Shown: positions 18,458 to 31,162 of the stretch, piece after piece
Layout: every line of letters begins with the position of its first letter
Position numbering within the stretch: the stretch's first letter is position 1
NCBI RefSeq assembly: GCF_024138145.1
Contig: NZ_CP099997.1
Span: 2,294,001-2,358,000, forward strand
From: Natronosalvus halobius
GTDB taxonomy: Archaea > Halobacteriota > Halobacteria > Halobacteriales > Natrialbaceae
Direction of reading: 5' to 3'
DNA length: 64,000 nucleotides
Made by a program: the position numbers and the translations under genes
The notes under the pieces: generated by a model
Seen by the model: the letters and a program-made list of their open reading frames with translations, nothing else
Databases searched by the model: none
What the model was told of the DNA's origin: nothing

Positions 18458-18670
18458 CGACCGAGTGTTGACGAGCGCGCCGGTAAACGTTCCGTTCTGA
18501 AGCGCTGAGTCCGGGTGGTCAGCGTATGCAAGCGATGTGCCAATACCTACGTGTCCCCACTGGGCCCCAGCGAAGCCGATCGAGGACGGTAGTATCAGTA
18601 AAACGCCATTATCAACCGTTTTGAGAGTACAGCGCTGGTTTCGTGCGAAGAAAGCCCGTAACAGTCTCTT

Positions 18671-18680
18671 TGTTTTACTC
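18671..18680 (+). promoter_or_regulatory. TATA-like box of the NETD-repeat protein gene
   Basis: TGTTTTACTC, 26-35 bases before ATG 18706, in the divergent region shared with tgtA. It supports ATG 18706 over the upstream in-frame ATG 18643. Confidence 0.5.
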
Positions 18681-18705
18681 TCACCGTCGCCGTCGGTCGA
18701 ATCGC

Positions 18706-20304
18706 ATGGTTTCACGAGCACAGAAACTAACCGTCATCCTCGTCACCGCCCTGGTCGCCGTCGCGATCGGCGGCGGCCCTGCTCTGGCAGCGGCGACAAC
18801 AGGGACGACGAGTGCGAGCGATGACGCGACAGCAGGAGACACGAGCGCATCGATCAAGAACGTCCAGGTTGGGACCCTGGAACTCGAGAACGTTACCCTC
18901 GAGAACGTGACGATTGAAGAGTTGAACGTCGAGAGCCTGAACGTCGAAGACGAAGAACTCGAGCAGGCACTCGAGGAGGACAACGAGACGGACGAGACGG
19001 ACGAATCGGGGGCGAACGACACCGATACGGGGACTGATACCGAGAACGACACCGATGTCGGTATGGACGACGAAGACAACGAGACCGACGTCGGCACCGA
19101 CGCGGACGACGGCGACGACCTCGGAACGGACTCCCAGGAGATTACCATCTCGGATATCGAGATCGAGTCGCTCGAACTCGAGAACGTCTCGATGAGTGAT
19201 CTTAGCTTCGAGGAAGAAGAGATGGACGACGGTGTCGATACCGACGACGACAGTGTTGACACCGACGATGATAGCGAGATGGACGACGACAACGAAACCG
19301 ATGTCGGAACCGACGATGGCGAAGACAACGAGACTGACGTCGGTATGGACGACGAAGATAACGAGACCGACATCGGCACCGAGGACGGAGACAACGAAAC
19401 CACTGGAGAGAACGTCATCGAGGAAGATACCGACGAACTCGTCGTCCAGAACGTCACCATCGAGGAGATGAACGTCGAACAGCTCACCATCGAGGAGCTC
19501 ACCGTCGAGGAAGACGAAGAGGGCGTCCTCGAGCAGATCGGCGGCTTCTTCGAGGGGCTGTTAGACGGTGACGACGACAACGAGACGGACACCGACGTTG
19601 GGACCGACGATGAGGACGACAACGAGACTGACGTCGGCATGGACGACGAAGACAACGAGACTGACGTCGGCACCGAGGACGGAGACAACGAGACTGACGT
19701 CGGCACCGAGGACGGAGACAACGAAACGGATACTGACGTCGGTACAGACGATGAAGACAACGAAACGGACGAGCAAAACACCCAGGAAATCGAGGAACTC
19801 ACCATCGAAATCTTTGAAATCGAGGAACTCACCTTCGAATCGATGACCATCCAGTCGCTCGAAAGTAGCGACGAAGACGGCGTCGACACCGAGGACGACA
19901 ACGAGACCGAGACGGACATCGGAACCGACGACGATGACGACAACGAAACCGACGTTGGGACCGACGATAGCGAGGACAACGAGACGGACGTCGGTACGGA
20001 CGACGAAGATAACGAGACCGACATCGGCACCGACGACGAGATGGACGACACCGGTGAAACGATCGAGTTCGTCTCCGCGAGCGAGGTAACCGTCGAGAAC
20101 TCCACCGCCGAAACGGTCACGCTCGGCGACACGAGCGAACTCGAGGAGGCACTCGGTGAGGACGGTGCCAACGAGACGGACACCGGTACTGACACCGACG
20201 ACACCGAGGCCGGAAACGACACTGACGACACAGACGACACCGAAACCGAGAACGACACCAACGACACCGAAACCGATCAGCGTCAACTACCGTTCCTCGG
20301 CTGA
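18706..20304 (+). CDS. Secreted, highly acidic repeat protein (NETDVGTDD repeats)
   Basis: 532 residues from ATG 18706. Signal peptide: '[20 protein letters not shown]' then cleavage near Ala-Leu-Ala-Ala (residue ~29). The mature protein alternates two repeat kinds: beta-solenoid-like strands of the form '[17 protein letters not shown]' (residues about 50-85, 150-170, 245-270, 360-385, 440-460) and disordered runs of '[13 protein letters not shown]' (about 20 copies). Nearly every acidic repeat contains N-E-T, an N-glycosylation sequon, and the strand parts add N-V-T. No sorting signal or C-terminal anchor is visible. It is probably exported and heavily glycosylated; role unknown. Repeats are close enough at DNA level for slippage. 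Confidence 0.82.
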
Positions 20305-28462: not shown

Positions 28463-28648
28463 CGACAGTTGGACCGCTTTCGGCCTGCGTTTTTTGGAGC
28501 GCTCGTAGAGAGTGATGGGGTCTTTCGCTCGAGAGTCACATCTAAGAGCGTTCTGACGGAGTCTTTCGCGAGCGAAGCGAGCGGAAGGCACGTCAGGACC
28601 GAACCCGCAGCGAGCGCTGAGCAACGCGAAGTACTCGCCAGAAGTGAG

Positions 28649-28669
28649 CGTCCTGACGGAGATTTGAAC
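28649..28669 (-). repeat. Attachment-site-like copy of the tRNA-Arg 3' end
   Basis: 21 bases identical to 28798-28818, that is the discriminator base, the 3' acceptor strand and most of the T-arm. It lies 149 bases downstream of the tRNA, in the same orientation, as expected for an attR left by a tRNA-targeting integrase. Confidence 0.8.
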
Positions 28670-28750
28670 GCGCCGAGACGGTCCGGGTCGCTCACTTCGT
28701 TCGCTTCCCGGGCTGCGACTCGTCTGCTCAAATCTCCGTGTGTGAGTTTC

Positions 28751-28792
28751 GTCGACACCAGCCGCTCGCTCCGCTCGCGGGTTGGTGTCGAC
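28751..28792 (-). other. Hairpin just downstream of tRNA-Arg
   Basis: GTCGACACCA (28751-28760) pairs perfectly with TGGTGTCGAC (28783-28792) around a GC-rich loop. It begins six bases beyond the tRNA 3' end; it could be a processing or termination hairpin, or part of an integration site. Confidence 0.6.
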
Positions 28793-28797
28793 AGAAA

Positions 28798-28870
28798 CGT
28801 CCTGACGGAGATTTGAACTCCGGTCCCTGGCTCCGCAAGCCAAGAGGATAGTCCACTACCCTACCAGGAC
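28798..28870 (-). tRNA. tRNA-Arg (anticodon GCG)
   Basis: 73 nt, CCA not encoded. Acceptor stem GTCCTGG/TCAGGAC (one G-U pair), anticodon arm TTGGC-TTGCGGA-GCCAG with anticodon GCG reading CGC, T-arm CGGAG-TTCAAAT-CTCCG. All arms are canonical. Discriminator G at 28798. Confidence 0.95.
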
Positions 28871-29090
28871 TCATCTCTTCGTAACCCGGAGTCGGTTAAA
28901 GCCCTTTCGAAAGGGAGGCGGTGTCGCTGCCGATTCTGTGGGACGTGACCGTAACGCACAGCTCTCGAGACGCTTTCTCGGGACGCGAACTCGAGGCGGT
29001 TTTCCCGACGCCACCTCGAGCACCAGCGCACGTTCGGCACCGACTGACGGCGGCCGACGATTTAAATACCATACCGCGGCAGATCCCGGT

Positions 29091-29162
29091 ATGAACGACC
29101 GAATCCGGCGACGACCGCAAATGGACAATGCTTATGCGCGGGCTACCCATGCACGAGCATAG
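29091..29162 (+). CDS. Possible 23-aa leader ORF before RPA
   Basis: ATG 29091 to TAG 29162: 23 residues, Arg-rich (MNDRIRRRPQ...). A strong TATA-like TTTAAATACC (29061-29070) is 21-30 bases upstream, so a leaderless mRNA could start exactly at this ATG. Its stop is one base before the RPA ATG (TAG-A-ATG), ideal for coupling. Alternatively RPA uses the weaker box at 29127-29134 and this ORF is chance. Confidence 0.4.
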   Translation: MNDRIRRRPQMDNAYARATHARA

Positions 29163-29163
29163 A

Positions 29164-30669
29164 ATGAGCGAGATCGAGGGTATCTACGAAGACCTCGAGG
29201 CCGACGTCTCCCTCGAGGAGTTCCAGGAGGCCGTCGAGGCCAAAGTCGAGCAGATGGGTGGACTCGCCGACGAGGAAACGGCGGCGATGCTCATCGCACA
29301 CGAACTCGGCGAGAGCGAGGTCACCGGCGTCGCGGACATCGAACCGGGGATGGAGGAGGCGAAGTTCACCGCCAAGGTCGTGAAAATCGGCGACATCCGC
29401 ACGTTCGAACGCGACGGCGAGGACGAGGACGGGCGCGTCGTCAACGTCGAAGTCGCCGACGAGACCGGGAGCGTCCGGGCTGCGTTCTGGGACGAACACG
29501 CCCAGGCGGCCGTCGACGAACTCGAGGAGGGGCAGGTGCTGAAGATCAAGGGCCGCCCGAAGGAGGGGTTCAGCGGCGTCGAAGTGAGCGTCGACGACGT
29601 CGAGCAGGACGACGACACCGAAATCGACGTCCAGATCTCCGACACCTACACCGTCGAGGCGCTCTCGCTCGGCCTCTCGGACGTGAACCTCGTCGGCGTC
29701 GTCCTGGACACCGACACCGTCCGAACGTTCGACCGGGACGACGGCTCGGAGGGAAAAGTGGCCAACCTCACGCTCGGCGACTCGACCGGACGCGTCCGGG
29801 TCACCCTCTGGGACGAGCGAGCCGATCTCGCCAACGAGTTCGCCCCCGGCGACACCGTCGAGGTCGTCGACGGCTACGTGCGCGACCGCGACGGCTCGCT
29901 CGAACTCCACGTCGGCAACCGCGGCGCCGTCGAGGAAGTCGACGTGGACGTCGAGTACGTCCCCGAGAGCACGCCGATCGAATCCCTCGAAATCGGGGAT
30001 ACGGTCGACATCGCGGGCGTCGTCCGCTCGGCGGACCCGAAGCGGACGTTCGACAGGGACGACGGCTCGGAGGGGCAGGTTCGAAACATCCGCGTCCAGG
30101 ACGCGACGGGCGACATTCGCGTCGCCATGTGGAGTGAGAAGGCCGATGTCGACGTCGGTCCCGGCGACGAGGTTGCGCTGGCGGACGTGGAGATCAAGGA
30201 CGGCTGGCAGGACGACCTCGAGGCCTCCGCCGGGTGGCGCTCGACTGTGACGGTGCTCGGCGAGGGCGATGGCGGTGGTGCCAGCGCCGATTCGAGCGAC
30301 GGTGGGAGCGAGTCGACCGGGCTTTCAGCGTTCGCGAACGGCGATGCCGGCGGGGCGAACGCGGCCGAAGACGGCAGAGATGGTGATACAGGTGAAACAG
30401 GCGATACAAACGATACAGACGGTGCTGCCGATACCGCCAATGCCAGCGGTGCCAACGACGCCAACGACCCCGAAGACGCCAACGACCCCGAAGACGGCCA
30501 ACAGATCGAATTCACCGGCGTCGTCGTCCAGGCCGGCGATCCGGTCGTCCTCGACGACGGCGAGACGACGATGAGCGTCGAGACGACCGTCGACGTCGGT
30601 CTCGGGGAAGAAATAACGGCTCGCGGACAGGTCAACGACGGGCGACTCGAGGCCGACGAGGTCTTCTGA
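29164..30669 (+). CDS. Replication protein A-like single-stranded DNA-binding protein
   Basis: 501 residues from ATG 29164 (frame open to 29128). Three OB-fold domains are visible by internal repetition at about residues 60-150, 165-260 and 270-370; two contain the near-identical 'RTFDRDDGSEG' / 'KRTFDRDDGSEG' strand. A Gly/Ser/Asp/Thr-rich linker (residues about 375-450) leads to a short C-terminal OB-like piece 'QIEFTGVVVQAGDPVVLDDG'. No cysteines, so no zinc finger, unlike some archaeal RPAs that have one. Binds ssDNA in replication and repair. Resembles the stand-alone RPA2 type of haloarchaea (no rpap partner gene next to it). Confidence 0.9.
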   Translation: MSEIEGIYEDLEADVSLEEFQEAVEAKVEQMGGLADEETAAMLIAHELGESEVTGVADIEPGMEEAKFTAKVVKIGDIRTFERDGEDEDGRVVNVEVADETGSVRAAFWDEHAQAAVDELEEGQVLKIKGRPKEGFSGVEVSVDDVEQDDDTEIDVQISDTYTVEALSLGLSDVNLVGVVLDTDTVRTFDRDDGSEGKVANLTLGDSTGRVRVTLWDERADLANEFAPGDTVEVVDGYVRDRDGSLELHVGNRGAVEEVDVDVEYVPESTPIESLEIGDTVDIAGVVRSADPKRTFDRDDGSEGQVRNIRVQDATGDIRVAMWSEKADVDVGPGDEVALADVEIKDGWQDDLEASAGWRSTVTVLGEGDGGGASADSSDGGSESTGLSAFANGDAGGANAAEDGRDGDTGETGDTNDTDGAADTANASGANDANDPEDANDPEDGQQIEFTGVVVQAGDPVVLDDGETTMSVETTVDVGLGEEITARGQVNDGRLEADEVF

Positions 30670-30698
30670 GCGGGCACGCCCCGTAGCCTGTACGAAAA

Positions 30699-30706
30699 GC
30701 GTTAAG
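30699..30706 (+). promoter_or_regulatory. TATA-like box of the histone gene
   Basis: GCGTTAAG, 25-32 bases before ATG 30731, so the histone and deacetylase genes can be transcribed apart from RPA. Confidence 0.5.
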
Positions 30707-30730
30707 AAGGTCAACTTCGGCTATCTGTGT

Positions 30731-31162
30731 ATGAACGTCGAACTTCCGTTCGCTCCGGTGGACACGATAATTCGACGGAACGCGGGGGACCTTCGGGTGA
30801 GCGCCGGTGCGGCGGAGGAACTGGCCAGGGAGATTCAGGCCCACGGCGCCCGGCTAGCGATCGACGCGGCCGAACGAGCGACCGCGGACGGCCGGAAGAC
30901 GCTGATGGCCGAGGACTTCGAGGTCGAAACCGTCGTCGACAAGGACGACCTCGAGTTGCCGGTCGCCCCGGTCGACCGGATCGCGCGCATCGACATCGAC
31001 GAACACTATCGCGTCTCCATGGACGCCCGCATCGCGCTCGCGGACATTCTCGAGGACTACGCCGACAACGTCGCCCGTGCGTCGGCGACACTCGCCCATC
31101 ACGCCGACCGCCGGACGATCACGGCCGACGACATCGAGACGTACTTCGCGCTCTTCCAGTAA
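30731..31162 (+). CDS. Archaeal histone, two fused histone folds
   Basis: 143 residues from ATG 30731. Two histone-fold units in tandem: residues 1-70 ('LPFAPVDTIIRRNAGDLRVS' ... 'RKTLMAEDFEVE') and 75-143 ('LPVAPVDRIARIDIDEHYRV' ... 'RRTITADDIETYFALF'). Fused dimers of this kind are the haloarchaeal form and are unusually acidic, with few Lys. They probably act more like regulators than abundant chromatin proteins. The next gene begins four bases after its stop. Confidence 0.95.
   Translation: MNVELPFAPVDTIIRRNAGDLRVSAGAAEELAREIQAHGARLAIDAAERATADGRKTLMAEDFEVETVVDKDDLELPVAPVDRIARIDIDEHYRVSMDARIALADILEDYADNVARASATLAHHADRRTITADDIETYFALFQ

Follow-up and report, generated by a model that had tools for sequence, protein, structure and literature searches.

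Hairpin cassettes ending in copies of the tRNA tail behind tRNA genes of Halobacteria

The repeats behind the tRNA-Arg(GCG) gene of Natronosalvus halobius are read here, with a probability of roughly 0.4, as a stack of two non-coding hairpin cassettes that entered at the tRNA 3' end, probably through a trans-acting recombinase. Right past the discriminator base of its host tRNA, a unit of type A opens with a hairpin (alpha); after a spacer comes another hairpin (beta), whose 3' arm copies the last ~21 nt of that tRNA and whose 5' arm is complementary to this tail copy. Hairpin cassettes behind tRNA genes are a genome-wide pattern, not peculiar to tRNA-Arg, and both arms tend to follow each host tRNA's own tail. 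The features of the locus are collected in Table 1, with positions counted in the window, i.e. the whole stretch of 64,000 nt that was analyzed. G000 denotes the genome holding the window, other G-numbers denote compared genomes, and L-numbers single extracted loci.

Table 1. Features at the tRNA-Arg(GCG) locus, in window positions
Feature	Position	Strand	Basis
tRNA-Arg(GCG), host gene	28798-28870	minus	ARAGORN; Rfam RF00005, 47.7 bits
Copied tail: last 21 nt of tRNA-Arg(GCG), T-loop to discriminator base	28798-28818	minus	
Unit A, 149 bp: hairpin alpha, spacer, hairpin beta ending in tail copy	28649-28797	minus	
Hairpin alpha, 52 nt, begins at first base past the tRNA	28746-28797	minus	inverted repeat; centroid fold
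5' arm of hairpin beta: 12-nt inverted tail copy, ACGGAGATTTGA	28728-28739	minus	inverted repeat, 100% complementary; pairing of arms across units
Inner core of hairpin beta	28670-28727	minus	fold; in relatives cores differ or are common to several tRNA loci
3' arm of hairpin beta: exact 21-nt tail copy, containing TCAAATCTCCGT	28649-28669	minus	repeat search, 21/21
Unit B, 100 bp: short hairpin and hairpin ending in worn tail copy	28549-28648	minus	read by eye
Third, strongly worn tail trace	28513-28528	minus	repeat search, 88% to 28554-28569

A preliminary description of this locus had listed a perfect 21-bp copy of the tRNA end 149 bases off, a diverged 13-bp copy 100 bases further, and an inverted partial copy, with no integrase nearby, and these observations were borne out. 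Repeat searches placed the direct copies at 28649-28669 (21/21) and 28549-28569 (71%), with spacings of 149 and 100; the former value is measured from start to start, the distance from the tRNA end to the copy being 128 nt, and the worn copy, read from the sequence, matches in 12/13 of its first 13 bases. The inverted 12-nt copy (28728-28739), complementary to 28656-28667 in the repeat search, is the 5' arm of hairpin beta, and the nearest PF00589 match in G000 lies ~226 kb away. The direct repeat of the tRNA 3' end borders both ends of the unit, as expected of an attL/attR remnant. In the hairpin of unit B, inspected by eye, the worn tail copy lies in the 3' arm and the 5' arm complements the acceptor strand, and the trace at 28513-28528 may represent the remnant of an older unit. 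Among relatives, unit A is present in G000 and G007, while in G002 the flank resumes at base +0 after the tRNA; unit B was found by eye directly behind tRNA-Arg in G002, G004, G008 (copy worn), G009, and G016. The fold z of the region, tRNA included, is -3.9. Over positions 28500-28900, only RF00005 exceeded its threshold in Rfam 15, i.e. no family matched outside the tRNA; sub-threshold scores were obtained for mir-4857 (25.3 bits, cut-off 70) and mascRNA-menRNA (19.9 bits, cut-off 42.5). A hairpin tip of the form GAGCnnnGCGA recurs in alpha, beta, and unit B of many species and is found in the window at 28762-28779 and 28567-28584.

The beta-helix gene next to the array, proposed earlier as left-over cargo, does not belong to unit A, as G002 lacks the unit and has the gene (78% aa). 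Sought in 22 of the 38 extracted tRNA-Arg loci, the gene accompanies unit A in G007 and has a 49% homologue in G003, which has no copies, and its role as cargo is ruled out. The AT-richness noted there holds for the DNA upstream of the gene (49% GC vs. 64% for the window) but not for the unit DNA (63%). Two further genes of the window may be mentioned. An ORF at 18643-20304, possibly for a surface protein, has a hydrophobic N-terminal stretch followed by many acidic DNETDVGTD-like repeats, and a gene with several OB-fold domains (29128-31162) adjoins an archaeal histone gene; judged by coordinates, the OB-fold gene is close to tRNA-Arg(GCG) in many relatives.

The tRNA set of G000 comprises 43 Rfam matches, and 13 of these tRNAs are followed, 20-200 nt downstream, by a copy of their own tail with at least 20/21 matches, compared with 0/1802 for tails of other tRNAs and 0/2150 for shuffled ones. 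With at least 16/21 matches required over the same distance, the count rises to 18/43 (0/2150 shuffled, 77/1802 other-tRNA tails). Exact own-tail copies of at least 13 nt occur within 600 nt downstream of 13 of the 44 tRNA genes used for that count (cross-tRNA controls 15/1890), and no such copy was found within 600 nt upstream of any of the 44. One gene missed by the RF00005 list, tRNA-Pro(CGG) on the minus strand (L208:965-1037, G000:C1:2286964-2287036), was found via an adjoining unit match.

To follow the units beyond G000, a covariance model, R1, was built from 33 units (set A1, 33 of 35 candidate rows, with the Arg units of G007 and G015 omitted). R1 is mostly a sequence model, RNAalifold having put forward just 5 pairs. 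At E up to 1 it yields 18 matches in G000, 15 of them training rows; 17 follow closely on a tRNA, in its orientation, and one lies over tRNA-Arg itself. Its best match there is unit A, but this is also one of the training rows. The model recovered 15 of the 19 training units of G000, missing those of Arg(tcg), Gly(tcc), Val(tac), and an intron-bearing tRNA labelled Asn, and of 3796 first-look candidates no more than 150 received a score. At E up to 0.001, matches are found in 114 of 116 genomes of Halobacteria, some of which supplied training rows, with 1 to 33 matches each. Contrary to the reading of the preliminary description, this largely amounts to copies at the same site in distant species without an element. 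In a phylum-wide draw of 148 genomes, R1 matches 23/24 members of the order and 1/124 others (one weak match), 104 of these 124 having been assigned outside the order from the order of listing.

An independent test was provided by G112, a genome of another family, not itself used in building R1, although one training row (G027) belongs to its family. Of the 32 R1 matches in G112, 30 were extracted, and 29 of these follow a tRNA of the same strand at a distance of 26-331 nt; for 24 of the 28 scored copies (L242 and L247 left out), the own tail is the best match. The array at L247:1080-1500 opens with a tRNA-Val-like tail in which ARAGORN finds no complete tRNA, possibly an intron-bearing or degraded tRNA-Val. 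At the tRNA-Arg locus, compared in 38 of 40 relatives (G025 gave no match, G039 no tRNA match), an exact tail piece of at least 13 nt lies within 600 nt in 29/39 genomes. Further out, 0.9-6.8 kb behind the 39 tRNA-Arg genes were covered, and beyond 600 nt only four matches of 11-12 nt appeared. The only plasmid record matched is the 987-kb replicon CP031304.1 of Natrinema thermotolerans, with a unit and exact tail copy behind an unannotated tRNA-Glu-like gene. The latter (L277:2850-2970) appears to carry an insertion within its anticodon region, with the 5' acceptor strand altered as well, and ARAGORN finds nothing there. The phage records searched held no unit, and two core patterns, sought in IMG/VR viral contigs, returned 4 and 6 stretches with no unit among them. 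A viral origin was rejected: nine of these ten stretches look unrelated, and L268 is a tRNA 3'-end piece on a phage-like contig, again without a unit.

Pairing of the beta arms was assessed with a specified 14-pair structure and not via RNAalifold. Across the 33 units, 86.4% of positions are paired and covariation is 0.298, compared with 0.176 after shuffling (reached in 0/500) and at most 0.190 when the arms are slid; for the G112 set, the values are 84.4% and 0.293, vs. 0.153 (0/500) and at most 0.122. Pairs with two-sided change are unexceptional, 55/500 (33 units) and 35/500 (G112 set) shuffles being as high. When tail copies were permuted among 5' arms, the observed pairing was reached in 0/20000 permutations both for G000 (17 units) and for G112 (36 units). 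The G112 set (A2; 51 rows, 41 distinct) contains five antisense or doubtful rows (L245:1506, L236:1496, L259:1384, L240:1496, and L239:1496), which were left out of the permutation test and included in the covariation test, and in either set arms are not independent where units have a tRNA in common. The match between the arms is partial, with 4.2 and 4.7 Watson-Crick pairs at 7 outer positions vs. 3.0 (cross) and 3.6 (permuted). Read from the sequences, the border of both arms falls at T-loop sequence.

Occupancy differs between close relatives. Among the congeners G000, G007, and G002, 15 tRNA genes differ in the presence of a copy (at least 16/21, so that worn units count as absent). Filled and empty sites were compared for the first copy only, with alignments of at least 40 nt and more than 75% identity, and in 5 of 12 comparisons of a copy-bearing with a copy-free genome the alignment meets the tail border to within 5 nt: Ser(gga) (91% over 148), Met (79% over 135), and Gly(gcc) (81% over 150) at +0/+0, and two Ile alignments (95% and 92% over 146) at +4/+5. 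The other seven comparisons, Ala(cgc), Leu(tag), Glu(ttc) twice, Leu(gag) twice, and Met of G007-G002, are off the border, with worn units or other changes in between. Four further +0/+0 cases involve a second genome with copies of its own, one of them being unit A at Arg(gcg) (G000 vs. G002, 92% over 111). Outside this group, Haloferax larsenii (NZ_AOLI01000028.1) carries behind tRNA-Met a 100-bp unit with a 20/21 copy, while H. elongans (NZ_AOLK01000011.1) has no unit there and a closely similar flank directly after the tRNA.

In 25 of 45 arrays, preservation of the first copy exceeds that of the last; the reverse holds in 5, and 15 are tied, the loose 10/13 cutoff of this count letting in chance distal matches. 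Near-identical units may be stacked, as in G026 with the order B-A-B; at G049:C1:63203-63525, three R1 matches of equal score lie exactly 122 bp apart, probably a recent tandem array. Variant tRNA-Arg tails are reproduced in copies of at least 13 nt in G012, G015, G029, G030, and G034; each genome was searched with its own tail, and G019, G031, and G032 have a variant tail and no copy. The inner parts of the units combine more freely. Judged by alignment score per length, not identity, related genome pairs have similar alpha and dissimilar beta cores at Lys(ttt), Arg(cct), Val(tac), and Leu(taa), and at Val(gac) alpha is common to one genome pair and the core to another. Similar cores are also found at different tRNAs, one example being Arg(tcg) with the intron-bearing tRNA labelled Asn, another Ser(tga) of G002 with Ser(gga) of G007, and cores of the form CAGGGAG..CGACCGTGG are common to G000 and Haloferax. 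By these comparisons, loci exchange hairpin cores.

No PF00589 match was found near the tRNA-Arg array. Four 20-kb stretches of G000 holding both an integrase and a tRNA contain, apart from the unit at Glu(ttc), no further direct tail copy of at least 16/21; a single inverted match, of 16/21, was seen. That the units are the ends of large integrated elements was rejected on the lack of extra copies in these stretches, a search that elements longer than 20 kb would escape.

If the units are inserted cassettes, they would be non-autonomous elements mobilized by a recombinase in trans, most likely a tyrosine-type integrase of tRNA 3' ends. Crossover would then occur at the T-loop (TTCAAAT/TTCGAAT, a sequence that nearly all tRNA genes here possess), the folded beta hairpin perhaps being the substrate of the recombinase. 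In favour of insertion stand the excess of own-tail copies over both controls, the placing of R1 matches behind tRNA genes and their spread through the class, the exact borders, the combinations of alpha and cores, and the better state of first copies in arrays. Its weak point is that no enzyme turned up, the nearest integrase match being ~226 kb off and four stretches around integrases showing no such ends; the seven comparisons off the border and the lack of a unit in the viral matches and phage records also count against it. Plain integration alone would not adapt the 5' arm to a new host tRNA; both arms might be kept matched to it afterwards by local recombination or template correction. 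Arms that track the host tail are explained at least equally well by selection on a folded RNA. The main rival is a possible but doubtful reading in which the units function as RNA trailers transcribed together with the tRNA, and in which tail copies and complementary arms are maintained by selection on a small RNA released by processing, as in RttR behind E. coli tyrV. R1 matches lie on the tRNA strand, the arms covary in two sets, permuted tails never reach the observed pairing, the region including the tRNA has a low fold z, and the tyrV units share the layout, the first being annotated as an ncRNA. Against this stand the unexceptional two-sided changes, the fact that sister genomes have, by score, unrelated cores behind one and the same tRNA, and the lack of an Rfam match above threshold besides the tRNA. 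Copy presence, moreover, differs at 15 tRNA genes among three congeners (at 16/21, with worn units counted as absent), and 25/43 tRNAs of G000 have no copy of at least 16/21 within 200 nt; because of this uneven occupancy, no general essential role is ascribed to the units.

An explanation that needs neither a dedicated enzyme nor a function, a self-maintaining mutational structure, is considered unlikely. Recombination between tails would resize the arrays and template switching in quasi-palindromes would keep the arms, as the near-identical stacked units of G026 and G049, the near-palindromic T-loop sequences, and the variant tRNA-Arg tails carried by copies in five genomes would suggest; but similar cores at different tRNAs and in distant families (as between G000 and Haloferax), and the clean 100-bp difference at tRNA-Met of Haloferax, are left unexplained. 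The view of the preliminary description, that the copies are footprints of unrelated elements integrated and lost at an ordinary attachment site, is very improbable. It is partly right as to gains and losses at tRNA ends: in several relatives the tRNA 3' end is the exact border at which a unit is present or lacking, the sites are polymorphic, and the copied segment runs from T-loop to discriminator base, as is often the case for integrase sites at tRNA 3' ends according to PMC8371274. It overlooks the hairpin family, since these are not leftovers of assorted elements but ordered hairpin units behind many tRNA genes. Random remnants would have neither matched arms nor one hairpin layout with R1 matches throughout the class, and next to nothing was matched past 600 nt behind the 39 tRNA-Arg genes; the class-wide layout largely refutes this reading. 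More speculative, and distinctly improbable, is a gene-less integron-like system, in which cassettes would move as folded single-stranded DNA via a T-loop-specific recombinase and the arms would subsequently come to match the host. Because the T-loop is nearly universal, entry into almost any tRNA gene would be open to such cassettes, and with arms matched after insertion, an array would therefore be a stacked record of the insertions at that tRNA gene.

The units are markers that change quickly at tRNA ends, and they offer a natural way to test how the arms of a short piece of DNA stay matched to the gene beside it. As trailer RNAs, they would make up a large class of archaeal small RNAs linked to tRNAs; if they are mobile, the responsible enzyme becomes a concrete target. 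Searches of the open literature, with most subscription papers outside their scope, turned up no description of tail-copy hairpins behind haloarchaeal tRNA genes. New is the layout of the tyrTV repeats on the scale of a whole class, combined with mobility-like behaviour.

Several known systems resemble the units in part. Integron gene cassettes have attC hairpins with inverted core sites at the base around a variable inner part, and they stack at a fixed site. The likeness lies in the stacking by a fixed site and in the hairpin design and is a resemblance only; the halobacterial units have no gene inside and no adjoining integrase, the PF00589 search near the tRNA-Arg array having returned no integron integrase, and their site is a tRNA gene. 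With the attachment sites of tyrosine integrases, as PMC8371274 presents them, the units have the target, a similar extent of the direct repeat, and polymorphic occupancy in common, and differ from them by the absence of an integrase or cargo between the repeats, by the complementary hairpin, and by a size of ~100-180 bp. The MITE, PATE, and SMR elements of Haloquadratum are transposase-free, and the mobilisation of SMR is called enigmatic in their description (PMC3119063); they are likewise short, non-coding, palindromic, and strain-variable, but have no or short target duplications and often lie within other mobile elements. The halobacterial units, in contrast, lie behind tRNA genes and have a tail copy of 13-21 nt. 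Elements of the PATE/IS605 type are recognized, in PMC3119063, by near-terminal palindromes without target duplication; the units have palindromes but fall outside this type by their 13-21 nt tail copy.

The closest counterpart in layout, and an unexpected one, is the tyrTV operon of E. coli (NC_000913.3). Tail copies of 19/22 lie 156, 334, and 512 nt behind tyrV, in a unit of 178 bp, and GGGGAAGGAT at 59, 237, and 415 complements ATCCTTCCCC in the copies at 160, 338, and 516. A search for inverted copies at 11/14 reported none in E. coli, the tyrTV complement being 10 nt long; in the first unit, annotated as the ncRNA rttR, the predicted fold pairs all ten bases. As in the halobacterial units, each downstream unit of tyrTV/RttR has a tail copy at its 3' end and a paired inverted copy inside, a comparison that refers to layout alone. 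The E. coli case differs in being a single operon with a longer unit, an overlapping small ORF (tpr), and encoded CCA, whereas in Halobacteria many tRNA genes are followed by members of one family, for which alternative cores and exact empty sites occur. Since a bacterial operon has both the tail copies and their 10-nt complements, this layout is common to tyrTV and a class of archaea.
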